DNA from: an uncultured Alphaproteobacteria bacterium | GTDB lineage: Bacteria; Pseudomonadota; Alphaproteobacteria; Parvibaculales; Parvibaculaceae | Assembly (NCBI GenBank): GCA_903889655.1 | Contig: CAISYL010000189.1 | Location: 1 to 64,000, forward strand | DNA: 64,000 nt | Reading direction: 5' to 3' | Part shown: piece by piece, positions 22,956 to 60,366 of the stretch | Position numbering within the stretch: position 1 is the first letter of the stretch | Layout: each line of letters starts with the position of its first letter | Notes under the pieces: generated by a model | Told to the model about the DNA's origin: nothing | The model's database searches: none | Seen by the model: the letters and a program-made list of their open reading frames with translations, nothing else | Translations under genes and position numbers: made by a program

Positions 22956-25900
22956 CTACCACTCGTAGCGCACGCCGGCGGTCAATTCACCGCTGGTGTA
23001 ATCGCTCTTGAACTTCACGCCGCCGTTGACGAAGCCCGACCAGCCGCCGCCAAGTCCGAAGACATTGACGCTGCCGACCACTTCGCCGAATGCGCCGTCG
23101 AACTTGTCCTGCATGACGACGTCGCCGCCGCCGGACGTGATCGTGACCTTGTTCTCGCCGTCGAACTCATCCCACACGCGGCCGGTCAATGAGACGTCGA
23201 CCCTGGTCGCGGAGGACTGGTAAGCCGTCGTGCCGCCACGCAGACCGAGGCTGCCGCGGAAGCTGTTGGCATCCTTGAAGTCGAAGGACGCACCGGCCGC
23301 CGAGAAGCTGTCGATCGAGGTCTTGGCATAGGTCAGCGAGGCCAGAGGCTCGATGAATGTGCTCGTCGAGAGCGGGAAGCGCTGGCCCGCATCGAGTTCC
23401 ACACCGAAGGTCTTCACGTCGGGGCTCGCCGTGGCGCCGCTGAGCGAGGGCGCCGAGTAGTCGACGGTGAGCAGATCGGCCTTCACCGTCGCGTCGACGA
23501 AGAAGCCGCCCGTCAGGTAGGTGGCATAGGCGCCGAGGACCGCACCCTTGTACTTCGCCGTCGTGGGCGAAGACTTGAAATCCTGGTCCGAGGTCACATA
23601 ACCCGCCGATACGCCGCCGAGCAGCGTATCGCCTTTGCCGAACACATTGGCGCCGCCGGTGTCCGCACCGACCACGAAGCCGTAGGTGTTCTGGTTGTAA
23701 TCGGCCCGGTCCGTCATCGTCGTGCCGCCGGCCGTCACGGTCTGGCTCGTATTGCGCGACGTCCAGTGACCGAGGGCCTTGCCCCAGATGCCGGGTGTCA
23801 CCTTGCCTTCGCCGCCATTCAGTTGATCGCGAAGATCGGCCTGACGATCGAGCCAGGGCGATGTTTCATACCAGAGTCCCTGAGCTGCCGTTAGCATGGC
23901 GGGCAACTGAGCCGCTTCGTCGTCGGGCAGCGAGATCAGACGTTCTTCGCTGCCGTTGTGGACGAGCTTGTAGGCAAAGAGGCCTGGGTCGACCGCTTCC
24001 TTCGAGGCGTTGTAGAGCGGCTGCGTGGTGTCGAGCGCGAAGTCCGACGCCGACGTAGCGCCGCTGACGACCAGGATGCCGTCCGCGAAATCCGGTCCGA
24101 GGTAAGAACCCGGGCCCGAGGCGAGATTGACGATCCTGATCGCCGTCGAGCCGGCCGTCCCACCATTGGCGATGAGCCTGTCGGCGGTGTTCGCCTGCAT
24201 GCTGGTGCCGCCGAGATAGGCGTCGAGAACGAGGGTGCTCGAGCCCGAACCGGTGAAGAGGCCGTCGATCGTGACCGTGTCGACAGTATCCAGATTGTCG
24301 TCGCTCAGGTCGAGCGAGCCGGAGTTGTCGAAGTTCTCCAGACCGGTGAAGACCGTATCCCCCGTCAGGTAGAAATGGCCCGCATTGTCGACCCTGTCGG
24401 TGCCCGCGCCGAAAGCGAAGGTCGCCTCGCTGCCGGCGTGGATGTCGCCCGTCGAGGTCGTCGAGAGCGTGTCGTTGCCCCCCGTGAAGTTGTTCACACC
24501 GTCGGTGTACCAGGTGTTGGACGTGTTGTTGAACGTCGCGCCGCCCGTGCTCGACAGGTCGAAGTCGACGCGGCCGGTGATGTTTCCATCGTTCTGCACA
24601 TTGACGGAGCCTGTTCCCGTGACCGTCTTGATCGCGAGCACAGCTGGCGACGGCCCTGCACCGGTCTCTTCGATATTGCCGTCTTCGTGGTTATTGATCT
24701 GAACGGTACCGCCGGTGGTGACGACATCCACGACGGATCCATTGGATGCCTTGGCGGACGCGTCATTGTCGATGGTCACGCCACCCGTCGTCGACGATGC
24801 ACTGATCGCATGGGCGTAACCCGTCACGTCGGCATTGGTGGTGACGTGGATGGTACCCGTGCCGTAGGTCAGAGCTTCGACGCCAAAGCCGCCGGCGGAT
24901 GTAACGGTATCCTCCACGTCGACGATGATGTTGCCCGTCCCGCTGGCATTGTTGACCTTGGCCAGGATGCCGGAATTGCCGGCGTCCACCGTGCCGTCCG
25001 TCGTGACTGTCACGGCGCCCGTCAAGCCGGACGTCTGTGCGAAGATGCCGTAGTAGAAGGCGGTCTGGATGTCGCCGGTGGAAGCCGTCTTGACGTTCAC
25101 ATTGCCGTAGCCCTTGGCGACGATGCCATCGCCATGACCGGCATTGATCAAGCCGCTGTAGCCGTCTTCGGAGCCGACATCGACGTCACCCGTGCCGGTG
25201 CTGATCGCGGAGATGGCGTCATTGCTGGAACCGCCGCTGTCCGTCGTGATGGCGCCGGAGCCCGTCACGGTGATCTTGCCCGACCCGGCGCTGTTCGCCG
25301 AGATGCCCAGACCGATCGAGTAGATGTCGCCATCTGAGACGATGTCGATTTTGCCGCTGCTGCCGGCATTTTTCACGTTGGCCGTGATGCCCTTGTCGCC
25401 GACATAATTTTCCGACGAGCCGATCGCATCGTTGGTCGTGATCTTGATGTTGCCGAGGGTGGCGTTCAGGTCGGTTTCCGCCACGATGCCCTCGACGGCA
25501 TCGCCGCTGATGGTGCCGTTTTTGTGGGTCGTGATCGTCACGTCGCCGGTGCCGTCCGCGTCGGCATAGATGCCGCGGTCGCCTGTGGCGTTGATCGCCG
25601 CAGAGGTATCGATGGAGAGATCGCCATCATGCGAATAGGCCTGGATACCGTCGCCGCCATTGGTCGCGATGATGCCGTGCGTTTCGATGACGACGTCGCC
25701 GTCCGCGGTGGCGCCCCAGGACTGCCGGCCGCCATTGGCATAGATGCCCACAGCCCCGTAGGTGTGGCCGCTGTCGGCGTTGACCGTGATGTCGCCCGTA
25801 CCGGTCGTGATCGAGATCTTGCCGCCATCGCTATAGGCCGCGATACCGACATTGGAGCCCAGCAATCCGCCGGCACCGTCGCCGCCGTCGACCGTGATAT

Positions 25901-28163
25901 CCGCCACGCCGGTCTTGACCGTCACGTCGCCGGCGCCGTTGAAGGACGACAGCAAGGGGTCGTAGGTGGAGGCGAGAATGCCGATGCCCGTATCGCCGAC
26001 CACATGGATGCTCGTGCCGTCTTCGCCGCCCGTCAGATCGACGCTGACGCTGCCGGTCGCAGCGCCGCCCGTGGCGCCGCTGTTCACCGCATAGACGCCG
26101 AAGCTGTTGTCGCCGTTGACCGTCACCGAACCCGTATCGCCCGTTACGATGCTCACTGTCGGCGTACTTGCGTCGTCGTCCTCGGTCTTCTTGCTTTCGG
26201 CATAAAGGCCGTAGGCAGAGAGCGGTGCCGATGCATCGACCGTAACGCTGTCGCCGTCATTGGTCGTGATCGAGGCGTTGCCCCCGGCGCTGTAGGAATA
26301 CGCACCATAGCCCGTCGGATCGATGGTCACATCGTCGGCGACGATGACCTTGGAGTCGCCGGTGCCCAACGTGCTCGCCCGGACGCCATAGAGGCCGTCG
26401 GCATAGACCGAATTGTCGACGTTCACGGTGACGTTTCCGCTATTCGACGTGTTCGTGATGTCCGCGACGATGCCGCTGCCTGTCGTCGACACGTCGGCGT
26501 CGCCCACCGTGCCGTAGTTGGTCACGTTGATGTCGCCGGTTCCCGATCCCGAGATGATCGCGTGGATCGCGTCGCGCGACGCCAGGATCGACGTGGTCGT
26601 CGAGGTGACCTTGCCGTTGGTCGTGATGTTGATGTCGCCGCTGCCGCCCGTGATCTGCGCGCGAATGGCGTCGTCGCCACCGGTGATGGTACCGCCGGAA
26701 TGGGTGGTCACATCCTCCACGGTCACCGCCGTGCCGGTCGTGATGTCGATATTGCCGCCGGCTGCCAAGGCGTAGATGCCGTAGTCGTAGCGGCCCGTGC
26801 CGGCGCTGATGTTGTTGGCGCCGGTATTGATCTCGATGTCGCCGGTCCCGGTCTGCTTCGTCCAGATGCCGGATTCGTTATTTTGGAGCGTGCCGCCATT
26901 GGCGTTCAGATTGCCCGCCTTGTTGGTGATCGTGCCGTCTGCGTTGATCGTGATCTTGCCCGTACCCGAGGTCTGCGCCTCGATGCCGTTGCCTGCCGCC
27001 GTGATCGTGGCCGTGCTGATATAGGGCCCCTCTTCCAGCGGCACGACATCCGGAACCGTCGTGCCGAAATCGATGGTGATGGCCGCGCCGCCCGACAGGC
27101 CGATCGCCGTGATGCCGTCGTCGCCGCCATTGTCGCCGGCCGTGACCGTGCCGTCCGCGATGATGTGGATCAGGCCCGTTCCGCCGCTGACCGCCTCGAT
27201 GCCGTCATCGGAGGTCGAGTCGACGGTCGTTCCGTCCTTGGCCGTGATCGTGATCGTGCCCGCGCCGCCGGTGGTCGATGCGTAGATGCCCTCGCCGCCC
27301 GTACCCGTGCCGTTCGCCGAACCCTTGTTGAGGTCGACGATCACCTTGCCGGTCGTGTTCCCGGCCTCGATGCCGGCCGCGGCGCCGGTCACGCTTGTGC
27401 CGTTGGCCGTCACCGTCACGTCGCCGCCGGAGCCATGCGCCGTCACGCCGTACCAGTTCGGGCTGCTCACGGTGCTGCCTTCACCCAGCGTCACATCGAC
27501 GATGCCGGTGCCGGCGTTCGAGGCGCTGATGGCGGAATTCACGCCGCCGGTGACGTCATCATCGCCAATGGTCACGTTGACGTCGGCGTTGGTCAGGCCG
27601 GTCTGGGCGGCATAGATGCCGTAGCTGCTGCCCGAAATCGTGTTCGTCTTGTCCTGCACGACATGCGTGAACCAGTTGGTGTCCACCGTGTTGACGCCGA
27701 CGCCGCCGCCGTTCGACACCACCGTGATGGCGGTGCCCGTCGTCGAGGTGACGCTGCCCGCCGTGCCGTCCGTCGTGAAATAGACCTGCGCGGGAAAGCC
27801 GTTGCCGTCGACATGGATGCCGTCGGCCGGGTTCATATTGTCGTTCTCGACGATCGTCGCATGATCGATGTCGACCGCGATCGCGCTGGTCGCCGAATAT
27901 GAGATATTCGTGTCAATCAGGGTGCCGGAGCAGGTCTGGGTGCCGCTCGTCCCGCCGGAGCAGGCCGCAAGGGCCGGTTGCGAGCCGAGCATCAGCCCCG
28001 CCGCGCCAGCAAGAATACCCGTTCCGAGCGCCGTCGTGATCAGAAGAGGCCGCCCCGCATTGCACCGTAGACCGATGATGTTTTCGGCCTGGCTTTTACC
28101 GGATTCGGACGCAACTCTAGAGACAGCGCCGATCACTCGGCGCAGCATGATACCGCGGAACAT
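22956..28163 (-). CDS. Giant type Va autotransporter with a repeat-rich beta-helix passenger
   Basis: 1735 residues from the ATG at 28163 (GGTGGGGG upstream). A long extended signal sequence (about 65 residues, ending QPALA) is followed by the usual Cys pair (ACSGGTSGTQTCSG). Residues to about 1300 hold dozens of imperfect 20-40-residue repeats built on GTGDINVTTNGTV-like units with GIYA or GIEA turns, typical of a right-handed beta-helix. A linker leads to a 12-strand barrel (about the last 275 residues, from GIWGKALGHWTS), ending in YEW rather than the usual Phe. The passenger is acidic, very low in Lys/Cys, and suits adhesion or surface coating. It is divergent from the TonB receptor. Confidence 0.92.
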   Translation of the reverse strand: MFRGIMLRRVIGAVSRVASESGKSQAENIIGLRCNAGRPLLITTALGTGILAGAAGLMLGSQPALAACSGGTSGTQTCSGTLIDTNISYSATSAIAVDIDHATIVENDNMNPADGIHVDGNGFPAQVYFTTDGTAGSVTSTTGTAITVVSNGGGVGVNTVDTNWFTHVVQDKTNTISGSSYGIYAAQTGLTNADVNVTIGDDDVTGGVNSAISASNAGTGIVDVTLGEGSTVSSPNWYGVTAHGSGGDVTVTANGTSVTGAAAGIEAGNTTGKVIVDLNKGSANGTGTGGEGIYASTTGGAGTITITAKDGTTVDSTSDDGIEAVSGGTGLIHIIADGTVTAGDNGGDDGITAIGLSGGAAITIDFGTTVPDVVPLEEGPYISTATITAAGNGIEAQTSGTGKITINADGTITNKAGNLNANGGTLQNNESGIWTKQTGTGDIEINTGANNISAGTGRYDYGIYALAAGGNIDITTGTAVTVEDVTTHSGGTITGGDDAIRAQITGGSGDINITTNGKVTSTTTSILASRDAIHAIISGSGTGDINVTNYGTVGDADVSTTGSGIVADITNTSNSGNVTVNVDNSVYADGLYGVRASTLGTGDSKVIVADDVTIDPTGYGAYSYSAGGNASITTNDGDSVTVDASAPLSAYGLYAESKKTEDDDASTPTVSIVTGDTGSVTVNGDNSFGVYAVNSGATGGAATGSVSVDLTGGEDGTSIHVVGDTGIGILASTYDPLLSSFNGAGDVTVKTGVADITVDGGDGAGGLLGSNVGIAAYSDGGKISITTGTGDITVNADSGHTYGAVGIYANGGRQSWGATADGDVVIETHGIIATNGGDGIQAYSHDGDLSIDTSAAINATGDRGIYADADGTGDVTITTHKNGTISGDAVEGIVAETDLNATLGNIKITTNDAIGSSENYVGDKGITANVKNAGSSGKIDIVSDGDIYSIGLGISANSAGSGKITVTGSGAITTDSGGSSNDAISAISTGTGDVDVGSEDGYSGLINAGHGDGIVAKGYGNVNVKTASTGDIQTAFYYGIFAQTSGLTGAVTVTTDGTVDAGNSGILAKVNNASGTGNIIVDVEDTVTSAGGFGVEALTYGTGTIHVTTNADVTGYAHAISASSTTGGVTIDNDASAKASNGSVVDVVTTGGTVQINNHEDGNIEETGAGPSPAVLAIKTVTGTGSVNVQNDGNITGRVDFDLSSTGGATFNNTSNTWYTDGVNNFTGGNDTLSTTSTGDIHAGSEATFAFGAGTDRVDNAGHFYLTGDTVFTGLENFDNSGSLDLSDDNLDTVDTVTIDGLFTGSGSSTLVLDAYLGGTSMQANTADRLIANGGTAGSTAIRIVNLASGPGSYLGPDFADGILVVSGATSASDFALDTTQPLYNASKEAVDPGLFAYKLVHNGSEERLISLPDDEAAQLPAMLTAAQGLWYETSPWLDRQADLRDQLNGGEGKVTPGIWGKALGHWTSRNTSQTVTAGGTTMTDRADYNQNTYGFVVGADTGGANVFGKGDTLLGGVSAGYVTSDQDFKSSPTTAKYKGAVLGAYATYLTGGFFVDATVKADLLTVDYSAPSLSGATASPDVKTFGVELDAGQRFPLSTSTFIEPLASLTYAKTSIDSFSAAGASFDFKDANSFRGSLGLRGGTTAYQSSATRVDVSLTGRVWDEFDGENKVTITSGGGDVVMQDKFDGAFGEVVGSVNVFGLGGGWSGFVNGGVKFKSDYTSGELTAGVRYEW
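23900..28000 (-). repeat. Degenerate coding repeats of the autotransporter passenger
   Basis: Within the gene, short related DNA units encoding Gly-Thr-Gly-Asp-Ile/Val and Thr-Thr-Asn/Asp-Gly-Thr-Val recur every 60-120 bases over about 4 kb. Copies differ at many codons, so they are diverged protein repeats, not fresh tandem duplications. Long open frames on the opposite strand are produced by this compositional bias. Confidence 0.7.
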
Positions 28164-28198
28164 GAAGACCCCCACCAGATTGCCGCATATCGGTATCG

Positions 28199-28217
28199 GT
28201 GGAAGGAACCCTTCCAC
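28199..28217 (-). promoter_or_regulatory. Inverted repeat in the autotransporter leader
   Basis: GTGGAAGG-AAC-CCTTCCAC, a perfect 8-bp repeat with a 3-base loop, 36 bases before the ATG at 28163. As RNA it would form a compact hairpin in the leader; as DNA it could bind a dimeric regulator. Confidence 0.45.
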
Positions 28218-48407: not shown

Positions 48408-48558
48408 CGTTCATCCCCGGAGCCAGGCTTCTTGCGACATATTCGCCGTGGCGGCGGCCGGCGGTCCGCAGGCCGGCGAAGCCAGCTTCAAACCGCCGCC
48501 CATTGAGGCTAGGCTCCTTCCGGGGCGAGACGATCAGCAAATCCGGAAAGCCAGCCGC

Positions 48559-49371
48559 ATGCCCAGCAAGGGACATAACAAGAAACATAAAATCCGTCTC
48601 CATGACGACGACGATGGAAACGGACACTACAAGAGAGAGCTTTACGACCTTCAGGTCGAGCTGGTGAAGCTGCATAAAGATGTCATCGCCAACAACCGCA
48701 AGCTCCTCATTGTCTTCGAGGGTCGCGACGGCGCCGGCAAGGACGGCACGATCAAGCGCATCACGGAGCATCTCAGCCCGCGCGAAACGCGCGTCGTGGC
48801 GCTCGGCAAGCCATCCGACCGCGAGACGTCGCAATGGTATTTCCAGCGCTATGCGCGCTATCTGCCGGCGGCGCAGGAAATCGTGTTCTTCAATCGGAGC
48901 TGGTACAACCGCGCCGGTGTCGAACATGTCATGGGTTTCTGCACAGCCGAGGAACACGAAGTCTTTCTCGCGACCGTTCCCTCCTTCGAGGAGATGCTGA
49001 TCGGCGCAGGTATTACGCTGCTCAAATATTATCTCGACATCGACAAGGCGGAGCAGAAGAAGCGTCTCGAGGCGCGGCGCAAGGATCCGCTGAAGCAATG
49101 GAAGCTGTCGCCCGTCGACAATGCGGCGCTGAAGCACTGGGCCGACTACAGCCGCGCGCGCGACGTCATGTTCGCCCGCACACATACACTGCATGCCCCC
49201 TGGCATGTCGTCTGCGCCAATGACAAGCGCGAGGCGCGGCTCAACGTGATCCGCGATATCCTCAATCGCATCGACTATGACGGCAAGAAGCAGAAGCAGG
49301 CGACACCGGACGTGAACATCGTCTTCCCCTTCGACCCCGTGCATCTCAAAGACAAGCGGATATCGAAGTGA
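48559..49371 (+). CDS. ppk2: Polyphosphate kinase 2 family protein
   Basis: 270 residues from the ATG at 48559 (GGAAAG eight bases upstream). Walker A is GRDGAGKDGT (55-64); FFNRSWYNRAGVEHVMGF and the lid arginines follow (KKRLEARRKDPLKQWKLSP). Single-domain PPK2 enzymes of this length use polyphosphate to phosphorylate NDPs or NMPs. Class I is most likely from length and motifs. The stop overlaps the next gene's GTG. Its head is basic and acidic in turn (KGHNKKHKIRLHDDDDG). Confidence 0.93.
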   Translation: MPSKGHNKKHKIRLHDDDDGNGHYKRELYDLQVELVKLHKDVIANNRKLLIVFEGRDGAGKDGTIKRITEHLSPRETRVVALGKPSDRETSQWYFQRYARYLPAAQEIVFFNRSWYNRAGVEHVMGFCTAEEHEVFLATVPSFEEMLIGAGITLLKYYLDIDKAEQKKRLEARRKDPLKQWKLSPVDNAALKHWADYSRARDVMFARTHTLHAPWHVVCANDKREARLNVIRDILNRIDYDGKKQKQATPDVNIVFPFDPVHLKDKRISK

Positions 49372-50687
49372 CGCCGCTCTTCGCACCGCTCGCGATCGAA
49401 CCCGAGCGCTTCGCAGCGCTACTGGCTCTCGGGTTCTTTCTCGGCCTCGCCTTCGAGGAATATTTCGCCAAGAGCCGCATCAAGCCGCCGGGTGGCGTGC
49501 GCACTTTTCCGCTGCTGGCGCTTTGCGGCGCGCTGCTTTACACGCTCGAGCCGCAGCACGGACTACTCCTCCTTGGCGGTCTCGGCATTCTCGGCGCCTG
49601 GCTTTCGATCTATTACGCGCGACGGTTACAGAACCAGCTTGCGGAGACCGAGGATCAGGCGCCCGCCGACCGCCGGCTCGATGCCGGCATCATGGCGCCG
49701 ACAGGCAACGTGCTCGCTTTTCTGATCGGTCCCATCGCACTTGCCGAACCGCTCTGGGTCGCGGTCAGCGTCGCGGTTGCCGCCGTGCTCTTCACTGGCG
49801 CGCGCGAACGCCTGCATGCGCTGGCGACGACGCTCGGCTCCGAGGAACTCGTCACGCTCGGCAAATTCCTGATCGTCATCGGCATCGTGCTTCCGCTCGT
49901 GCCCAATACGCCGGTCACAAGCCTGACGCCGATCACGCCCTACGAAGTGTGGCTTGCCGTCGTCGCCGTCTCGACGCTTTCCTATGCGAGCTATCTGGTG
50001 CAGCGGTTTCTCGCGCCGACCCATGGGGTGCTGATCTCGGCGGCGCTCGGCGGCCTTTATTCCTCGACTGCGACGACCGTCGTGCTGTCGCGGCGCGCCC
50101 ATGCAATGGCCGGAACGTCCGCCCGGATCCAGTCGGCCATCGTTCTAGCGACGGCGATCATGTTCCTGCGCATCATCGTCGTCGTCTCACTCTTCAGCCT
50201 GCCGCTGGCACTGAAGCTGCTGCCGGCGGTCGCCATCCTCTGCGTGAGCGGCCTCGCGATCACCGCCTGGCTGATGTGGCCGGCGGCAAAGCCGGACGGC
50301 GAAGCCCCGCAGGCGTCGATGCCCACCAATCCGCTGGAACTTTCGACCGCCATCATCTTCTCGGTCCTCTTCATTGCGCTGTCGATCGCCGTCGAGTGGG
50401 CGAAAACCCGTTTCGGCGAAAGCGGGCTCTTCGGTCTTGGCCTCCTTGCCGGCTTCACGGACGTTGACCCGTTCGTGCTGAGCGTCGCGCAGGGCGCGTC
50501 GCGCGCCATCGATCTCGATCTTGCCGCGGCCGCGATCCTGGTCGCCGCCTCCGCCAATAATTTCCTGAAAGCGAGTTACACGCTGGGCTTTGCCGGGCGG
50601 ACGACCGGATTGAAACCGGCCCTTGCGCTCTTTGCGCTTTCGGCCGGCGGCATCGTCGCGGTTTTCTTCGTGCTCGGCCGGGTGTGA
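49368..50687 (+). CDS. MgtC/DUF4010 integral membrane protein
   Basis: 439 residues, start GTG in GTGA overlap with ppk2. About twelve membrane helices: an N-terminal MgtC-like part (FLGLAFEEYF then RTFPLLALCGALLYTLEP) and the DUF4010 domain (SAALGGLYSSTATTVVLSRRA and GFTDVDPFVLSVAQG). The substrate is unknown; MgtC relatives are tied to magnesium and phosphate homeostasis, which would suit the coupling to polyphosphate kinase. That link is inference. Confidence 0.88.
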   Translation: MTPLFAPLAIEPERFAALLALGFFLGLAFEEYFAKSRIKPPGGVRTFPLLALCGALLYTLEPQHGLLLLGGLGILGAWLSIYYARRLQNQLAETEDQAPADRRLDAGIMAPTGNVLAFLIGPIALAEPLWVAVSVAVAAVLFTGARERLHALATTLGSEELVTLGKFLIVIGIVLPLVPNTPVTSLTPITPYEVWLAVVAVSTLSYASYLVQRFLAPTHGVLISAALGGLYSSTATTVVLSRRAHAMAGTSARIQSAIVLATAIMFLRIIVVVSLFSLPLALKLLPAVAILCVSGLAITAWLMWPAAKPDGEAPQASMPTNPLELSTAIIFSVLFIALSIAVEWAKTRFGESGLFGLGLLAGFTDVDPFVLSVAQGASRAIDLDLAAAAILVAASANNFLKASYTLGFAGRTTGLKPALALFALSAGGIVAVFFVLGRV

Positions 50688-51892
50688 TGAAAGACATCGC
50701 CTCGACCGGCATGGGCAAAGGCATGATGCGCGGCCTGCCCGCGAGCGTCTGGGCCCTCGGCCTTGTCAGCCTCTTCATGGACATGTCTTCCGAACTCGTT
50801 CATGCGCTGCTGCCGGTCTTTCTCGTCTCCGGGCTCGGCGCCAGCATGGTCGCTGTCGGTCTCATCGAAGGCATGGCTGAAGCGACGGCTTCCATTACGA
50901 AAGTCTTTTCGGGCGTTCTCAGCGACTGGCTCGGCCGGCGCAAGCTGCTCGCCGTCATCGGCTATGGGCTCGCCGCGCTGACCAAGCCGCTCTTTCCGCT
51001 CGCAGCAACCATCGACGCCGTCATCGCCGCGCGCTTCATCGACCGCGTCGGCAAAGGCATACGCGGTGCGCCGCGCGATGCCCTCATCGCCGACATCGTT
51101 CCACCGGAACGGCGAGGTGCCGCTTACGGATTGCGGCAGGCCCTGGATACGGCGGGCGCCGTGGCGGGGCCGCTCCTTGCCATTCTCTTCATGTCGCTCC
51201 TGAACGACGACATCAGGGCCGTCTTCTGGGCGGCGACGGCGCCGGCGTTCATCGCCGTGCTGATCCTCATCTTCGCGGTGCGGGAGCCCACGCATCATGA
51301 AATCACGAAGCCGAAAGCGCCCTTGCAGCTCGCCAGCCTGAAACAGTTCGACGGTCTCTACTGGGGCGTCGTCGCCGTCGGTGCGGTGCTGACGCTGGCG
51401 CGTTTCTCGGAGGCTTTTCTGGTGCTGCGTGCGCAGGCCTCGGGACTTGCCGTGGCCTATGTGCCGTTCGTCATGGTGGTGATGAGCAGCGTCTATACGC
51501 TTGCAGCCTATCCGGCGGGCGTTCTCGCCGACCGGCTCGACCGGCGGTCGCTGCTCGCGCTCGGCTTCGCCGTCCTGATCGCGGCCGACATCGTGCTGGC
51601 GCGGGCCACCGTTCCCCTCATGGTCTTCGCGGGCGTCGCGCTCTGGGGTCTCCACATGGGGCTTACACAAGGACTTCTGTCGGCCCTTGTCGCCGACGCC
51701 GCGCCGACTTCGCTGCGGGGAAGCGCCTTCGGCATTTTCAATCTGGTGTCAGGTGTCGTATTGCTCGCGGCAAGCGCCCTTGCGGGCTGGTTGTGGGAAA
51801 GCCACGGCCCGGCCGCAACCTTCTATGCGGGCGCGACCATTACCGCCGCCGGACTTGCCGCCCTTCTCGTCATCAGGAGTCGTTCCGCTTGA
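50687..51892 (+). CDS. MFS transporter
   Basis: 401 residues; the ATG at 50687 overlaps the previous stop (TGATG), with a GTG at 50684 as alternative. Twelve membrane helices, and the loop 2-3 signature SGVLSDWLGRRKLLAVIGY. The N-terminus SLFMDMSSELVHALLPVFLV and GKGIRGAPRDALIADIVPP match a clade of uncharacterised MFS proteins widespread in proteobacteria. The substrate is unknown. The next gene's TTG overlaps the stop. Confidence 0.9.
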   Translation: MKDIASTGMGKGMMRGLPASVWALGLVSLFMDMSSELVHALLPVFLVSGLGASMVAVGLIEGMAEATASITKVFSGVLSDWLGRRKLLAVIGYGLAALTKPLFPLAATIDAVIAARFIDRVGKGIRGAPRDALIADIVPPERRGAAYGLRQALDTAGAVAGPLLAILFMSLLNDDIRAVFWAATAPAFIAVLILIFAVREPTHHEITKPKAPLQLASLKQFDGLYWGVVAVGAVLTLARFSEAFLVLRAQASGLAVAYVPFVMVVMSSVYTLAAYPAGVLADRLDRRSLLALGFAVLIAADIVLARATVPLMVFAGVALWGLHMGLTQGLLSALVADAAPTSLRGSAFGIFNLVSGVVLLAASALAGWLWESHGPAATFYAGATITAAGLAALLVIRSRSA

Positions 51893-52782: not shown

Positions 52783-55308
52783 TCAGAACTGAATGTTCAG
52801 ACCCACGTTGATGAGGCTCGCGACGCCGCCTTCCTTGCCGACGCGGGCGTCATAGCCGAGGGTCCAGCCGACCGTCTGCCCCTTGCCGATGCTGCCCTGG
52901 GCACCGACGCCGAGGCGCACATCGTCCTCGTTCTGCGTGGGCACCGTGACCGAGGCACTGCCCAGGCCGTCGGCAACGCTCGCCAGTGCGAGGTTCACCG
53001 TGTCGTCGCTCTTGTCGAGAACGAAGTCGTAAGCGGCATGTCCCGTCAGCGTCACATCGTCGAAGGGAACGATGATCTCGCCGCCGAGACCGAGTGTCGT
53101 CTGATCAACCGAACGGTCGGAATAGGCAATGTTGCCGCCCGCTGCGCCATGTTCGGTGTAGCCGTCGATATCGGCCTTGAGGTAGCTCAGCGACGCGACC
53201 GGGCCGAGTTTCGTCATGCCGCCGACGCCGATCATGTAGCCGACCTCACCATAGGCGGTCTGCGCGGTACCCTTCGTGCTGCCCGTCGCGGAAAGGCCAT
53301 AGGCCGCCGGACGGGTGATCTCGCTGAAGTCGATCCAGGGCAGGTAGCCATAGGCCGCCGATGCGAAGAAGCCGCCCGTGTCGTAGGTGCCATAGACGCC
53401 GAGCGAGACCGAACGCGATTCGGTGCGGAAGCCCGAACTGGGTTCAAGATCGCCGCCGCCGAAGCCGAGCACGCCGCCGACGATGACGCCCTTGCCGAGA
53501 TTGGCGTCGGCGCCGATCGTGCCGCGGAGATCGCTGACATGGTTCACGTAGTCATGGTGACGATCGTCGGAGTTGTAGAGGCCCGTTCCCCAAACGTTGA
53601 AGTTCGCGATCGTGCCGCCGCTCGCCGCCGCGCCGCGCAGAACGCCGAGGCGATCCTGAATCGGCGTGAGAGATTCCTCCGCGGCCGAAATGCCGGCATC
53701 GCCCGCCATCGTCGTGGTCACCGCGCCCGCGCCGACCATGTAATCGTAGAATTCGGGATCGACGGCCGTCGGCAATGTCACCTGATAGACGAGGATCATG
53801 TTGTCGTTGTTGTAGCTGGACGAGCAGTCGATGCCGCTCATCGTGCAGGAGGTCGAGACATAGTCGTTATCGTTCGAGACGAAGAGCAGGAAGTCCTGCG
53901 GATGCTTCTCATCGAGCTTCGGCATGAGAGACATGCCTTCCCACTTTTCCGACCAGGAGACCGGGTTATGCGGATCCGCGTTCGATGTGGTGAGCCCGAA
54001 GTTGGCAAGCTGCGTCGGGTTCAGCATGTTGACGAGTTGCGTCGTCGAGACCGGCGTGATGTCCGAATTCAGCACGACGCTGCCGCCGACAAGACTGTCG
54101 ACCGGCGTGTAGGAAGTTTCATAGTTCGTGCCGGCGAGATTGGTCGCTCCACGAGTGTCGACGAGAAGGATGCTGCGATAAGTGAAGTTGTTTGTGGCGC
54201 CTGTTCCGAGACCCGTGCCGCCGTCGCGTGCGAGCGTCAGGAACTGGTAGTCGTTGATTGCCAGCGCTTCGCTCTGCGCCGCCGTGCGGTTCACCGCGCC
54301 GCCCGTGCCGCCGAAGGTATAAGTCGGCAGTTGCAGAACGTAATGGCCGACCGGATTGTCCGGCGTCGCATCGCCTTTCGAGATGTCATAGACGAGGACG
54401 CGGGTGTCGGTGCGGTTCGCCTGATTGGAGTTCTGGGTATCCTGCACCGTCGCGCTCTGGAGCACTGCGATGACGTATTTGCCGTCCGGCGTCACGGACA
54501 TGCCTTCGAGGCCCTGATTGTTGCGACGGCCGCCATCGGTCGGCGGGTTGAGCGAGTTGTAGTTGAGATCGCCGCCGGTGAAGGGTTGCAGCGCCTTGGG
54601 CGGCTGGATCACGCCCTGAAGCTTACCGTCCGCGCTGAAGTAGTAGATCGCTGCGGCGTATTCGTCGCTAATGTAAAAGCTGCCATCGGAGCGGAAGGAA
54701 ATCGCCTCCGCGTCGATCGAAACCTTGCCGGCGCCCGTTCCCGATGCAGGGCTCGGCAGCACGATCCCGTTTTCGGTCTTGGTGCCCGCCCCCGGATCGG
54801 CGCCGGTGAAAGGATTACCGTTGAAGTCGAGAAGCTCGATGCCGCCGGTCTGGTCGTAGGTGAGCTGATCCTGCGAACTCGTCGAGGCCGGCAGATTGGG
54901 GCCCGAATAAGGCGTAAAGGTCGAATCGAAGCTGTTGAGACGGGCCGGATAGTCGAAGAAAAGCGGCACGGAGGGATCGTTGCGGCCGCGATCGGGCAGC
55001 GTGTACATCGAGAAGGAATAATTGCCATTGCTGTCGACGCGCCAGGTCGAGCGCTGGATGGCAAGGCTCGAGAACGAGCCGAGCGTGTCGCCGAGGAAAT
55101 CGGTTTCGTTCGCCGAAAGCCGGCCGGTGCCGACGAGGCCCCAACTCGTGAAGGTGTTGCCACCCAAGGTCGTCGTTTCAGCGGTGCCGCTCGGCGTGTT
55201 GTCGATATTGGGCGTGGTGTAGGACGGTGCCGCGGCGAGCGCGGGATGCGCAGCGAGCACGACAAGGCTGGCTGCCGCGAGCAAAGCGCGGCGAGCGGAA
55301 GGTCGCAT
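52783..55308 (-). CDS. Autotransporter with an esterase-like-phytase passenger
   Basis: 841 residues, ATG with GGGGG upstream. Signal peptide to about residue 25 (VVLAAHPALA). Residues about 40-540 match the esterase-like activity of phytase domain: SIDAEAISFRSDGSFYISDE, NNQGLEGMSVTPDGKYVIA and SWSEKWEGMSLMPKLDEKHP. The last 270 residues form an autotransporter barrel (NFNVWGTGLYNSDDRHHDYV) ending in LINVGLNIQF. The passenger would be a surface-displayed phosphoesterase-like beta-propeller for phosphate or organic phosphate use. Enzyme activity is unproven in this family. Confidence 0.88.
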   Translation of the reverse strand: MRPSARRALLAAASLVVLAAHPALAAAPSYTTPNIDNTPSGTAETTTLGGNTFTSWGLVGTGRLSANETDFLGDTLGSFSSLAIQRSTWRVDSNGNYSFSMYTLPDRGRNDPSVPLFFDYPARLNSFDSTFTPYSGPNLPASTSSQDQLTYDQTGGIELLDFNGNPFTGADPGAGTKTENGIVLPSPASGTGAGKVSIDAEAISFRSDGSFYISDEYAAAIYYFSADGKLQGVIQPPKALQPFTGGDLNYNSLNPPTDGGRRNNQGLEGMSVTPDGKYVIAVLQSATVQDTQNSNQANRTDTRVLVYDISKGDATPDNPVGHYVLQLPTYTFGGTGGAVNRTAAQSEALAINDYQFLTLARDGGTGLGTGATNNFTYRSILLVDTRGATNLAGTNYETSYTPVDSLVGGSVVLNSDITPVSTTQLVNMLNPTQLANFGLTTSNADPHNPVSWSEKWEGMSLMPKLDEKHPQDFLLFVSNDNDYVSTSCTMSGIDCSSSYNNDNMILVYQVTLPTAVDPEFYDYMVGAGAVTTTMAGDAGISAAEESLTPIQDRLGVLRGAAASGGTIANFNVWGTGLYNSDDRHHDYVNHVSDLRGTIGADANLGKGVIVGGVLGFGGGDLEPSSGFRTESRSVSLGVYGTYDTGGFFASAAYGYLPWIDFSEITRPAAYGLSATGSTKGTAQTAYGEVGYMIGVGGMTKLGPVASLSYLKADIDGYTEHGAAGGNIAYSDRSVDQTTLGLGGEIIVPFDDVTLTGHAAYDFVLDKSDDTVNLALASVADGLGSASVTVPTQNEDDVRLGVGAQGSIGKGQTVGWTLGYDARVGKEGGVASLINVGLNIQF

Positions 55309-55510: not shown

Positions 55511-56818
55511 ATGGACGGGGGGAGCCTCGCGGGGACCGATGCTGCGGCGGCGCGGCTTGCCGCCGAAACGGCCTATCACGCCGAGGTCGAGCGCAACCTG
55601 CCGCGCAATTATGCCGCCAATCTTGCCCACGGACTTCTTGGGCAGACGGGGTTCCGCCTCGTCACCGCGCCGACCTTCGTGCCGGCCTATATCTATCTGC
55701 TCTCGGGCTCCGAATTCGCCGTCGGCCTCGCGCTCGCGGCGCAATGGCTCGGCAACGCGCTCTCCTCGACACTCGGCGCGACGCTCGTCGAGCACCGGAA
55801 GCGTGTGCTCTCGATGGGCCTTCTGGTCGGCTGGGGCATGCGCGGCGGCGTGCTCGGCCTTGCCCTCAGCGGCTATTTCCTGCCCGATCGCTGGGCGCTC
55901 GTCTTCGCCTGCCTCTTTCTCGGCATGTTCGGCCTCTTCAATGGGGTGCAGTCGGTCATCTTCCAGCTGCTGATGGCGAAGGTGATCCCGCTGCGCCTGC
56001 GCGGGCGGCTCACCGGCTTTCGCAATTTTGCAGCAGGGCTGACGGCTTCGGGCGTCGCTTATGTGGGCGGCAAATATTTCGTCGAGGCGCATGCACTGGG
56101 CAATGGCTATGCGACGACATTTCTCGCCGCCTTCGTGCTGACCTCCGTCGGGCTCACCATGCTGATGCTGGTGCGCGAACCCGATTCGCCCGAGGTGCGC
56201 CCACGCACGAGCTTCCTGCTGCGCATGCGCGAGATACCGGACATTCTGCGCGCCGACAGCGAACTTGGACGGTTCGTTCTCGCCTCCGGCCTGGCCGCGC
56301 TCGGGACGCTGGCCGTGCCGTTCTATGTGCTCTATGCGGGCAGGGCGATCGGGCTATCCGGCACCACGCTCGGCGCGCTGTCCACCGCATTCCTGCTCTC
56401 GCAGACGGGCGCCAATCTGATCTGGGGGTCGCTGGCCGACCGGGTCGGCAATCGCATCGTCTTCCTCGCCTCGGTGGGGCTCTGGGCGCTTTCGACTGTC
56501 GTGTTGATGGGCATGAGTTCGCTCTGGCCGCTCGTCGCGGTCTTCGCCGGGCTCGGCGCCGGACAGGCCGGCTTTCAGAACAGCACGCAGAACATGATCC
56601 TCGAATTCGGCGTGCGCGAGGATCTCGCCATGCGGATCGCGATCATGAACACCGCGACCTCGGCAATGATGGCGGTCGGCCCGCTGCTCGGCGGCCTCAT
56701 CGCCCACGGCACATCGTTTATCGCGGTTTTTTCAATCTCGTCGCTGATGCTGAGCGCGGCTTTTGCGCTTGTGCTTTTCACCGTGAGCGAGCCCCGCCAG
56801 CGCGACCTCTTTCACTGA
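55511..56818 (+). CDS. MFS transporter
   Basis: 435 residues from the ATG at 55511 (GGAGGAG upstream; GTG at 55508 is an alternative). Twelve helices. A 45-residue cytoplasmic head (AAETAYHAEVERNLPRNYAA) precedes GLLGQTGFRLVTAPTFVPAY. NLIWGSLADRVGNRIVFLA is the second A-like loop. The substrate is unknown. Its last 87 bases overlap, antisense, the 3' end of the PPDK-like gene. Confidence 0.88.
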   Translation: MDGGSLAGTDAAAARLAAETAYHAEVERNLPRNYAANLAHGLLGQTGFRLVTAPTFVPAYIYLLSGSEFAVGLALAAQWLGNALSSTLGATLVEHRKRVLSMGLLVGWGMRGGVLGLALSGYFLPDRWALVFACLFLGMFGLFNGVQSVIFQLLMAKVIPLRLRGRLTGFRNFAAGLTASGVAYVGGKYFVEAHALGNGYATTFLAAFVLTSVGLTMLMLVREPDSPEVRPRTSFLLRMREIPDILRADSELGRFVLASGLAALGTLAVPFYVLYAGRAIGLSGTTLGALSTAFLLSQTGANLIWGSLADRVGNRIVFLASVGLWALSTVVLMGMSSLWPLVAVFAGLGAGQAGFQNSTQNMILEFGVREDLAMRIAIMNTATSAMMAVGPLLGGLIAHGTSFIAVFSISSLMLSAAFALVLFTVSEPRQRDLFH

Positions 56819-58426
56819 GGCGGGTGCCGCGCCGCCTGCTCGCCAGCGCGCGACCTCGGCGAGTTCGGCCTCCGGCCGCTCGCGCGTGACGGACAGCGCG
56901 CCGGCGAAGATGCGGCCGCCATCGCCGTCAAGCGTCAACTCGTCGCCCTCGTGGAATTCACGGTCGCCAATGAGGCAAAGCCCTTTCTCCGGCAGGATGC
57001 GCAGGCCCGCACAGCCGACGAGGCAGACCTTGCCAAGCTGGCGCGCCACCACGGCCGCATGAGATGTACGCCCGCCGGACGCCGTGAGCACGCCCGCCGC
57101 CGCGGCGATGCCCTCGATATCGCCGGTCGATATGTCGTCGCGCACGAGAAGCACGGGCTTGCCCTCGGCGGCGAAGATAGAGGCGCGCTTCGGATCGAAG
57201 ACGATGTGTCCTATGGCCGTGCCGATGCTCGCCGGAACGGCGGTCGCCAGCGGCGTGGCGTCGCCGCCGGCAAAACGCAGGCGCTCCAGCCTGTCGAGCG
57301 CAATGCCGTCCAGATGCTTCAAGGCTTCCTCGGGCGCGATCAATCCCTCGGCCACCATGTCGACCGCCATGCGCAGCGCCGCCCAGGGCGTGCGCTTGCC
57401 GTTGCGGGTCTGGAGGAGATAGAGGCGACCTTCCTCGACGGTAAATTCGAAATCCTGCATGTCGCGGAATTCGGTTTCGAGGATGCTCTTCATGCGCTGG
57501 AGTTCGGCCGCGACGGCGGGCAGACGGCGCGGAAGATGCTCCGTATCACGGACCGCATGACGGCCCGAGACGACGTCCTCGCCCTGCGCATTGAACAGGA
57601 AATCGAGATAGGTGCGGTTCTCGCCGGTCGCAGGATCGCGCGTGAAGCCGACGCCCGCACCCGAACTCGCGCCCATATTGCCGAAGACCATGGCCTGCAC
57701 GGTGACGGCCGTGCCCATATTCGCGTCGATGCCGTTCAACGCCCGGTAGCGCTTCGCCTTGTCGCTCATCCATGAGCGGAACACGGCCTCGACGGCGGCG
57801 AGAAGCTGCTCCATCGGGTCTTGCGGGAAGGGATCGCCCGTCAGAGCGAGGGATAGCGTCAGTGATTCCTGGGCAATGGCGGCAAGCGCCATGCTGTCGA
57901 GATCGCGAATGCTCGCCAGCCCCTCCTCCGCCGCCCGCGCCTCGGCCAGCGCGTCGAAAGGCGTTGCGTCCACGTCGCGCACGACCTCGGTGAAATCGCG
58001 GACGAGACGGCGATAGCTGTCCTGCACCTGGCGCGGATTGCCGGTCATGCGCAGGAAGCCGCGTGCGGTCTGTTCGGTCAGGCCGATATTGAGGATCGTC
58101 TCCATCATGCCCGGCATCGAGACCGGCGCGCCGGAGCGCACGGAAACGAAAAGCGGACGGCGCTCGCGACCGAAGCCGCGCCCCGTCGCCGCTTCGAGTT
58201 CGCGCAAACCGCGCGCCAGCAACTCGCGCGTCCCGTCGGGAAGCTTTCCGCCGTCGAGATAGGATCGGCAGATCTCGGTGCCAAGCACGAAGGCCGGCGG
58301 CACGTTGAGGCCGAGCCGCGCGAGCCGCATCAGACCATAGGCCTTTGAGCCCATGGTTCCGGCACTCGCCGAAGCCGGCACGGGCTTTCCGGGCATGACG
58401 AAAAAGAGGTGTTCGTCGAGGGACAT
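56732..58426 (-). CDS. PPDK-like protein: ATP-grasp plus phosphohistidine domain, no PEP-binding barrel
   Basis: 564 residues from the ATG at 58426 (a TTG at 58432 overlaps the upstream stop). It matches the N-terminal two thirds of pyruvate phosphate dikinase: GSKAYGLMRLARLGLNVPP, VSVRSGAPVSMPGMMETIL (95-113), VQAMVFGNMGASSGAGVGFT (243-262), NAQGEDVVSG, and the phosphohistidine motif GGRTSHAAVVARQLGK (His456, Thr454). PPDK then has about 330 more residues with the PEP/pyruvate barrel, which are absent; a basic tail (KHKRKSRAQHQRRD) ends the protein. It may transfer phosphate to an unknown acceptor, perhaps on the coupled DUF47-like protein. Confidence 0.85.
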   Translation of the reverse strand: MSLDEHLFFVMPGKPVPASASAGTMGSKAYGLMRLARLGLNVPPAFVLGTEICRSYLDGGKLPDGTRELLARGLRELEAATGRGFGRERRPLFVSVRSGAPVSMPGMMETILNIGLTEQTARGFLRMTGNPRQVQDSYRRLVRDFTEVVRDVDATPFDALAEARAAEEGLASIRDLDSMALAAIAQESLTLSLALTGDPFPQDPMEQLLAAVEAVFRSWMSDKAKRYRALNGIDANMGTAVTVQAMVFGNMGASSGAGVGFTRDPATGENRTYLDFLFNAQGEDVVSGRHAVRDTEHLPRRLPAVAAELQRMKSILETEFRDMQDFEFTVEEGRLYLLQTRNGKRTPWAALRMAVDMVAEGLIAPEEALKHLDGIALDRLERLRFAGGDATPLATAVPASIGTAIGHIVFDPKRASIFAAEGKPVLLVRDDISTGDIEGIAAAAGVLTASGGRTSHAAVVARQLGKVCLVGCAGLRILPEKGLCLIGDREFHEGDELTLDGDGGRIFAGALSVTRERPEAELAEVARWRAGGAAPASVKEVALAGLAHGEKHKRKSRAQHQRRD

Positions 58427-58428
58427 CT

Positions 58429-60366
58429 TCAACCGGCCATGACGTCGTTGACGAGATGATCGCGCAACATCAATGCCGTGCGCGACAAGGCATCCGCCGC
58501 CTCCTCGAGAAGACGGGCAAGCGTTCCGACGAGTTCGAGAACGCGGAAATCCGGCGCCTCCATCAGGAGCAGGCCGCGCGCCGTGCGCTCGACCTTGTCC
58601 GTCTCGTGCTCGATGGCGGTGAGGCGGTCGACTGCCTGCAGGAAATCGTCGAAATCCTCGCGCGCGCCGTCGCGACGCACTTGCGCCGCCGCGCCGAAAA
58701 GCTTCACCAGTTCCTGCGCGCCTTCGACCAGAAGTTCGGCGAGCCTGCCGACCGGTGCGAGAAGATCGGGCGATGTCTGAAGTTTCGGCAGAAAGGCCGC
58801 GATGAAGGCCGCTTCTTCGAGCGCGTCGGCGGCATCGTCCGCTTCATGCAAGAGGTCGCGATAGATTTCGGGCTTGTGCATCCGGCGCACCAGCGAGCGT
58901 ACGCGGTTGACCAGCGCGTCCGCTTCCTGTTCCCAATGCTGGGCGCGTGAGGCGGCGGCATCGAAATCGTGGCCGCCTTCGCCGAAGCGCAGCAGTCCAT
59001 CGCGCAAGCCGGTTGCGAGTTCGAAGACGAGCGCCGCATGAGAAGACGCGATCGAGAGCAGGCTTTCCTGCGCACCGCGGAAGCGCCGCGCGAGTTCCGT
59101 CTTCACCTCGTCGCGGATGAAGCGTTCGGAGCGGCCGGCGATCAGGCCTTCCGTCACCGTGCGCAGGACGAATTTCAGATAGTCGACCGCCTGCTCCGCG
59201 CCCAGCGCTTCGTGGAGCTTTTCTCCGTAATGGATCGTCTGCTGCGCGAATTCGATCGCCTCGTAGAGAAGCCGTTCGCCGCCGAGCATCAGGAAGCCGC
59301 GATGGCCGATATTGTTTTCGGCCGCCCATTTCAGCAGGCGGACGCCGTCATCCTTGCGCAGGAATTCACGCAGCAGCTTGCGCGTGTGGTTCCAGTCGAT
59401 CAGGAAGACGATGCGCGAGCCGAGAAAGGCGAGATAGCGTTCGAGCGCCGTCTGATCGGCGGCATCGAACCGGCCGATGCAGAGATAATAATTCTCCTTG
59501 CCGTTGACCTCTTCGCCCTGGCGCGTGCGCGTGTCGTCCCATTGCACGGCGAAGGGCTTGAAGAGGCTCTGGAAAAAAGCGGCGCGTTGCGTATGGATGT
59601 CCGTATAGGTCAGCGTGACCGCCAGACCTTCCACATGAATGACGAGAACATGCGCGTCATTGGTGCCGATGTCGTTCTGGACGATCAGCTTGCCGCCGGC
59701 GCGCGTTGCCGTCGTGCCGAGGCCTGGATGATCGAATTTGAGCGGCGCGGTTTCGTTGAGACCGCGCATGAAGGCGGCGACCAGCGGACGGTCCGCCTCT
59801 TCGACGCGCCAGACGCGGGCGCCGTCGATGCTCTCTTCGGACAATTCGGCCTGCAGCGCATTGAGCGCCTTGTGGAGGTCCATCACCAGAATATGAAGGC
59901 TGTCGCCGCGCGCGCGGTCGGCGGAGGTAATCGCGTCGACGATCCCGGCGGCGACGAGGTCGTTCTCGAAGGGCGGCAAGGCTTTCGTCAGCGCCGCTTC
60001 CCGTGCCGCAAAATCCGCGCCGGCCGGGACGCCCGCCAATGCCAGCGGCGCGCGCATCGTCGCGATCTCGCCAAGCACAGAATGCCGCAAGGCTTCCGCG
60101 CCCGGCAGATGAAGGGCACCGTCCAGTGCGCGCCGCGCATCGGCGAGCGCAGTGTCCAGTGTCGCATCCACGACGCCGGCCGCGCGCCGCTCGGCGGAAA
60201 GATCGACGGCGGCACCGTCCGGCCGGTCGGCGCGATGCTCGGCCGTCTGCAACAGGGTCAGCAGGAATTTGACGCGGTCGTTCGCGGCCAGCGCCTGCGC
60301 CAGAAGGTCCGGCAACAGCAGCGCCCGCTCGCCGAGTTCGTCGATCATTACTGACTTGGTGGGCAC
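58429..60366 (-). CDS. Large protein with a C-terminal DUF47/PhoU-like helical domain
   Basis: 645 residues from the GTG at 60366 (GGAG six bases upstream); an open frame to 60438 would run through an inverted repeat. Residues about 1-420 are not recognised: mixed alpha/beta, with VMDLHKALNALQAELSEESI, NDIGTNDAHVLVIHVEGL and FLGSRIVFLIDWNHTRKLLR. Residues about 435-645 are an all-helical bundle like DUF47/PhoU, with IYRDLLHEADDAADALEEAA and IEHETDKVERTARGLLLM carrying the acidic metal-binding pattern. It is coupled to the PPDK-like gene. A role in phosphate or phosphotransfer control is inference. Confidence 0.72.
   Translation of the reverse strand: MPTKSVMIDELGERALLLPDLLAQALAANDRVKFLLTLLQTAEHRADRPDGAAVDLSAERRAAGVVDATLDTALADARRALDGALHLPGAEALRHSVLGEIATMRAPLALAGVPAGADFAAREAALTKALPPFENDLVAAGIVDAITSADRARGDSLHILVMDLHKALNALQAELSEESIDGARVWRVEEADRPLVAAFMRGLNETAPLKFDHPGLGTTATRAGGKLIVQNDIGTNDAHVLVIHVEGLAVTLTYTDIHTQRAAFFQSLFKPFAVQWDDTRTRQGEEVNGKENYYLCIGRFDAADQTALERYLAFLGSRIVFLIDWNHTRKLLREFLRKDDGVRLLKWAAENNIGHRGFLMLGGERLLYEAIEFAQQTIHYGEKLHEALGAEQAVDYLKFVLRTVTEGLIAGRSERFIRDEVKTELARRFRGAQESLLSIASSHAALVFELATGLRDGLLRFGEGGHDFDAAASRAQHWEQEADALVNRVRSLVRRMHKPEIYRDLLHEADDAADALEEAAFIAAFLPKLQTSPDLLAPVGRLAELLVEGAQELVKLFGAAAQVRRDGAREDFDDFLQAVDRLTAIEHETDKVERTARGLLLMEAPDFRVLELVGTLARLLEEAADALSRTALMLRDHLVNDVMAG

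Follow-up and report, generated by a model that had tools for sequence, protein, structure and literature searches.

The window analysed here comprises positions 1 to 64,000 of the forward strand of contig CAISYL010000189.1 (assembly GCA_903889655.1), from an uncultured alphaproteobacterium of the Parvibaculaceae. On its minus strand lie two adjoining genes, one for a truncated relative of pyruvate phosphate dikinase (PPDK) without the phosphoenolpyruvate (PEP)/pyruvate barrel, here called P1, and one for a partner protein, P2. Existing annotations call P1 a "PEP/pyruvate-binding domain-containing protein" and P2 either a "DUF47 family protein" or a "phosphate transport regulator". The features of the pair are as follows.

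58429..60366, minus strand: P2, 645 amino acids from a GTG start, leading gene of the pair
59077..60366, minus strand: N-terminal domain of P2, ∼430 residues, without family match (alignment of 82 sequences; AlphaFold2 model)
59371..59826, minus strand: alpha/beta subdomain of P2, residues ∼181–332, holding most of the invariant residues
58432..59043, minus strand: C-terminal PhoU/DUF47-fold domain of P2, residues 442–645 (PF01865, 3l39, 4q25)
56732..58432, minus strand: P1, ATP-grasp and swivelling phosphohistidine domains without the PEP/pyruvate barrel (Pfam and TIGR01828)
56915..57160, minus strand: swivelling domain of P1, residues 425–506 (PF00391 match)

P1 comprises 566 codons when read from the TTG at 58432, or 564 from the ATG at 58426. 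The overlap with the P2 stop codon claimed in an earlier reading of this DNA (the original prediction) exists for the TTG start (TTGA) and not for the ATG start, which lies 2 nt beyond that stop; in relatives, the P2-to-P1 spacing is mostly about −17 to +50 nt. Pfam recognized PPDK_N (145.6 bits) and PEP-utilizers (68.6 bits) in P1, and PEP-utilizers_C (PF02896) was not found in that search. The TIGR01828 match was confined to model positions 17–522 of 865 and scored 549.7, below the cut-off of 843.45. Alignment to solved PPDKs covered only their first ∼517–530 residues, and across residues 12–530 the identity of P1 with full-length PPDKs was ∼41–45%. The catalytic histidine, with its codon at 57059–57061 (minus strand), is H458 when counted from TTG and H456 when counted from ATG, the latter being the residue named originally. 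T456, H458, and A459 were unchanged in 65 of 65 P1 proteins, as were the ATP-site residues K30, R99, E329, Q341, and R343, while position 327 was either D or E. K30, R99, E329, Q341, R343, H458, and position 327 align to K22, R92, E323, Q335, R337, H455, and D321, respectively, of PPDK from C. symbiosum (1kbl), residues with roles in binding ATP, transferring the phosphoryl group, and using phosphate. Because the ATP-site residues and the catalytic histidine are invariant in 65 proteins, P1 looks catalytically intact. Domain searches and residue conservation thus agree with the earlier description of a PPDK-like protein that ends before the PEP/pyruvate barrel with its ATP-grasp and histidine domains intact.

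The partner also conformed to its description, a 645-residue protein with an unrecognized N-terminus and a PhoU/DUF47-like end: its sole Pfam match was PhoU_div/DUF47 (PF01865) at residues 442–600, scoring 25.4 bits (cut-off 24.4; E 1.1e-5), which was also detected in 10 of 11 relatives, and no Pfam family matched residues 1 to ∼430. The tail matched 3l39 (profile E 5e-6; Foldseek TMt 0.77) and PhoU 4q25 (Foldseek TMt 0.78), and carries the invariant acidic residues E479, D483, D514, E517, E586, and D590; acidic residues such as these bind metals in PhoU proteins. In the N-terminal domain, K4, N29, K33, R122, D155, H158, H165, H213, Q230, N231, D232, H239, D256, H258, R261, D324, N326, R329, K330, and H355 were invariant in all 82 sequences. 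AlphaFold2 modeled residues 1–398 with a pLDDT of 87.8 and a pTM of 0.82, and full-length P2 with a pLDDT of 88 and a pTM of 0.62; the latter pTM suggests that the modeled domains are loosely positioned relative to each other. The subdomain at ∼181–332 bears only a weak resemblance to YbjN/AmyR, which falls short of significance in Foldseek (E 0.12, TMt ∼0.4) and is not used here. Relatives of ∼330 amino acids consisting only of the N-terminal domain occur in three Methanosarcina-like archaeal genomes (L199 3665–4669, L200 5233–6237, L201 4768–5760); by eye, most of the invariant histidines are lost from them, and they are possibly non-catalytic sensors, from which no clue to the family was obtained. 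In G462:C234 and G510:C12, P2 is split into two or three frames with P1 intact downstream, through assembly error or as a pseudogene.

The original prediction held the two genes to be coupled, rather than independently distributed. In a class-wide search of 385 alphaproteobacterial genomes, full-length P2 was found in 11, with P1 directly downstream in 11 of 11. A P1 profile recovered exactly those 11 genomes with 820–882 bits, the next matches (≤606 bits) being PPDK-length frames; because these 11 proteins had also served to train the profile, this score gap is widened. A single-query P1 search of 16 genomes likewise separated P1 (463–1,238 bits) from everything else (at most 410 bits). A scan of one genome collection with the P2 alignment yielded 522 P2 relatives, and the best 80 of these belonged to alpha-, beta-, and gammaproteobacteria, Desulfuromonadales, Planctomycetes, Acidobacteria, and Thermoleophilia (Actinobacteria) among bacteria, and to Methanomicrobia and Thaumarchaeota among archaea. 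Within these best 80, P2 was followed by P1 in 77 of 77 readable loci, archaeal and bacterial, the three other contigs ending within 131 bases. Of 119 archaeal genomes, 25 contained P2 and 24 of these P1 (24/24 readable; the contig of G505 stops just past P2). Thus, the genes were linked in every readable case of three samples, and no P1-type protein without P2 was seen in the two genome-wide ones (385 alphaproteobacterial and 119 archaeal genomes). The distance matrices of P1 and P2 correlated with an r of 0.80, compared with a maximum of 0.16 in 1,000 permutations. The pair of Parvibaculum sedimenti is 83–85% identical to that of the window, and because the arrangement is kept from there out to archaea, the pairing is not due to chance. 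Both genes are absent from the genomes most closely related to that of the window, and are plasmid-borne in Methylocella tundrae and Aquabacterium olei. Given its scattered occurrence across phyla, the pair is probably transferred as a single unit. No constant third gene accompanies it, as expected of a self-contained two-subunit unit. That no nearby gene supplies the PEP domain was also confirmed: none of 80 P2 loci contained a PEP-C sequence, and three genomes (G387, G389, and G391) hold P1 without any full-length PPDK.

A maximum-likelihood tree was built from 79 sequences, with VadK represented by the best NF004531 matches of Actinomycetota genomes rather than by Rv1127c itself. In it, P1 was monophyletic (100/100) and branched separately from full-length PPDK. 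The VadK-type proteins formed a second truncated lineage, also monophyletic (100/99), elsewhere in the tree. As the two truncated lineages are separate, this phylogeny implies at least two losses of the PEP domain from PPDK. VadK (Rv1127c) is a truncated PPDK of M. tuberculosis that autophosphorylates on His422, the equivalent of the catalytic histidine of PPDK, and acts in methylcitrate cycle regulation through protein contacts; a DUF47 partner is not mentioned (PMC13400623). A PEP-domain-less PPDK alone is therefore not new. P1 shows the same domain loss as VadK (NF004531/PRK05878), with the histidine kept, and scores just under the NF004531 cut-off (449.1 vs 456). However, VadK lies near methylcitrate genes and P1 near polyphosphate (polyP) genes, in another lineage and paired with P2, which was not found within about 6 kb in the VadK-type loci L232–L236. 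That P1 is VadK is ruled out by tree placement and neighborhood.

Neighbors were read from the stretches around the loci, with flanking genes called by a home-made codon-score caller. In ∼0.74 Mb of flanks, Ppx was present in seven loci, CHAD in seven, and PstB in six, compared with about 0.5 expected of each (Poisson expectation at 2 copies per 3 Mb for independent loci; related loci, such as two from Thiobacillus, are not independent). Ppx-GppA was the commonest Pfam family among same-strand neighbors (5/46). In Methanolinea (L116), PPK1, CHAD, Ppx, P2, and P1 follow one another on one strand as one operon, and a convergent SixA comes next. In Methanoculleus (L238), P2 and P1 are followed, 9 bp away, by convergent Ppx, CHAD-metallophosphoesterase, and PPK1 genes. 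The gene order in Geobacteraceae (L128) is CHAD, Ppx, P2, P1; in Thermoleophilia (L097), Ppx begins 3 bp past P1 and a CYTH-CHAD protein is also present; and in Methanolobus (L109), Ppx, PPK1, and CHAD precede P2, P1, a DUF4010/MgtC-like gene, and PPK2. In a metagenome-assembled genome of Planctomycetales (L105 3523–6669), CHAD and P2 are joined in a single open reading frame of 1,048 amino acids, counted from the first start, with an Ala/Pro-rich linker. CHAD domains bind polyP (PMC6537752). PstB is encoded near the pair in L048, L054, L124, L087, L082, and L106 (five pass the equivalog cut-off; L106 is 0.9 bits under) and directly adjoins it in the first three, while SixA, a phosphohistidine phosphatase (equivalog cut-off passed), adjoins it in L085 and L116. 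Among the archaeal genomes, PPK1 was present in 25 of 25 with P2 and in 50 of 94 without (one-sided Fisher p 1.6e-6, kinship ignored), and in six of the 25 it lies 1.3–6.9 kb from P2. These neighbors bear out the broader phosphate theme at which the original prediction had hinted. CHAD is fused to a Ppx-GppA domain III/HD region in L116 (2527–4227) and to a calcineurin-like phosphoesterase in L238 (12060–14066). A partnership of the DUF47-Pit transporter kind was set aside: the single Pit-like neighbor noticed (L058, by eye) adjoins a short DUF47 protein of G140, not P2, and no search for Pit was run on the P2 loci.

Because they are always together and repeatedly beside polyP genes, P1 and P2 are probably an unrecognized phosphate-handling enzyme. 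An intact module for phosphorylating a histidine from ATP, found only together with a single partner that carries an invariant polar set, fits a two-subunit dikinase with a replaced acceptor half. More specifically, P1 and P2 may constitute a dikinase-type phosphotransferase in phosphate or polyP metabolism, with P2 supplying the acceptor site, a proposal whose chances we regard as about even. ATP would be bound in the ATP-grasp domain of P1 and its phosphoryl group passed to His458, as in PPDK, with AMP most likely released and phosphate most likely the co-substrate, yielding pyrophosphate (PPi). The histidine domain would then swing to the N-terminal domain of P2, instead of the PEP/pyruvate barrel, where the invariant His/Asp/Lys/Arg set would be the acceptor site. 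Because of the gene neighborhood, polyP, phosphate, or PPi is the leading candidate for acceptor or donor, with polyP or phosphate the likeliest acceptor (in reverse, donor). The PhoU/DUF47 tail may sense phosphate or metal, or tether the complex. The net reaction would be ATP + Pi + polyP(n) ↔ AMP + PPi + polyP(n+1), and in the reverse direction AMP would be converted to ATP at the expense of PPi and polyP. The idea that P2 accepts the swinging phosphohistidine, put forward in the original prediction, is supported as an interpretation; physical acceptance by P2 we infer, along with complex formation, the identity of the acceptor, and the direction of the reaction. The most specific version, that P1-P2 is a polyphosphate, phosphate dikinase and as such a new class of polyP enzyme, in which an ATP-grasp/phosphohistidine subunit and a subunit of new fold extend polyP while converting ATP to AMP and PPi (or the reverse), and which spread as a pair through archaea and bacteria by transfer, is tentative and rather unlikely as it stands.

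Several observations weigh against the proposed two-subunit dikinase of phosphate or polyP metabolism. A polyP or phosphate neighbor was seen in approximately one-fifth of the loci, and none in the flanks seen of the other four-fifths; most alphaproteobacterial loci have unrelated surroundings. The association with PPK1 may partly reflect shared ancestry. With PPK1 itself encoded in 19 of 21 P1-P2 genomes, a replacement of PPK1 by the pair is ruled out. The N-terminal domain of P2 had no significant match in the PDB (two Foldseek searches), nor any significant resemblance to a polyP enzyme or known fold, and PPK domains are absent from P1 and P2 according to Pfam.

Much of the same evidence is accounted for by the main rival explanation, a regulatory phosphorelay, in which P1 would act as a VadK-like histidine kinase on P2, the state of P2 would control Pst uptake or polyP enzymes such as PPK or Ppx, and SixA would dephosphorylate. 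The autophosphorylation of VadK on His422 and its regulation by protein contacts (PMC13400623) offer a model for this, the tail of P2 has the fold of PhoU proteins, which regulate Pst, and both pstB and SixA genes lie directly beside the pair in some loci (three and two, respectively). However, ∼20 charged or histidine residues of the P2 N-terminal domain are invariant from archaea to bacteria, which is more like an active site than a relay with a single acceptor, and no fixed target gene travels with the pair; we regard the relay as possible but somewhat unlikely. More doubtful is a small-molecule kinase outside polyP metabolism, in which the P2 N-terminal domain would bind a metabolite that is phosphorylated from His458, comparable to phenol in phenylphosphate synthase. 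Swivelling phosphohistidine enzymes do use phenol and aniline as acceptors (PMC7500099), NCBIfam relatives act on rifampicin and prodigiosin precursors, and most loci show no polyP neighbor; yet the flanks share no common metabolic pathway gene, and the recurrent polyP/phosphate neighbors, the CHAD fusion, and the co-occurrence with PPK1 all point elsewhere. The idea of P1 as a PPDK remnant, or a fragment acting in trans, that borrows the PEP domain of a full-length PPDK, which the window genome and most others examined do hold, is largely refuted and very improbable, because of the conserved active site of P1, its constant pairing with P2, and its separate old clade, and a PEP domain in trans is ruled out by the lack of PEP-C in the loci and by the three genomes with P1 and no full-length PPDK.

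The two-subunit dikinase proposed here can be set against known systems. With PPDK (TIGR01828), P1 shares the ATP-grasp and swivelling histidine domains with aligned key residues, but neither the protein nor its locus has the PEP/pyruvate barrel and the clade is separate. Precedent for a dikinase with an altered acceptor is found in phenylphosphate synthase and phenylphosphoamidate synthase, multi-subunit dikinase relatives whose phosphohistidine serves a non-pyruvate acceptor (PMC7500099). In these, however, not only the histidine-bearing PEP synthase/PPDK-like subunit but also its partner resembles part of a dikinase, whereas P1 unites ATP-grasp and histidine on one chain and its partner is an unrelated protein, as compared by published architecture. 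The C-terminal domain of P2 shares fold and metal-type acidic motifs with PhoU/DUF47 proteins (PF01865), but ordinary DUF47 proteins have ∼210 amino acids, whereas P2 has an additional 430-residue domain and a dikinase as its partner. PPK1, PPK2, Ppx, and CHAD proteins share neighborhoods with P1-P2, in one case through the CHAD-P2 fusion, but no similarity in sequence or fold to P1 or P2 was found.

Elsewhere in the window, the predicted PPK2 and MgtC-like genes are real and lie some 6–8 kb from P1.

48448..49371, plus strand: PPK2 (polyphosphate kinase 2), near P1 but not adjacent (PF03976, E 7.6e-95)
49368..50687, plus strand: MgtC-like membrane protein (DUF4010; PF13194), overlapped by the end of PPK2

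P. sedimenti shares the block PPK2-MgtC-MFS-MFS-P1-P2. In the window, the PPK2, DUF4010/MgtC-like, and MFS genes form one overlapping run (48448–51892), and a DUF4010/MgtC-PPK2 pair also stands beside P2-P1 in Methanolobus (L109 10436–13283); PPK2 and the MgtC-like protein may be a functional pair. Next to the MFS gene that overlaps the P1 end, a phytase-like esterase domain is joined to an autotransporter beta-barrel (52783–55308); the fusion had no match in the P. sedimenti stretch examined. A 1,753-amino-acid open reading frame at 22956–28217 had no Pfam match at E 1e-5.

Truncated PPDK (VadK) and dikinase relatives with other acceptors are already known. A full-text search of open-licence PMC papers found no account of the P1-P2 pair, the P2 N-terminal domain, or an association with polyP. 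The literature searched attributes the making and use of polyP to PPK1, PPK2, the VTC complex, and polyphosphatases. The pair raises the general question of what a swinging phosphohistidine serves once its acceptor domain has been replaced. If the proposal is true, the pair would bring to polyP or phosphate metabolism a second kind of phosphohistidine chemistry, based on a dikinase rather than on the PPK fold, and could explain the recovery of ATP from AMP and PPi in some methanogens.

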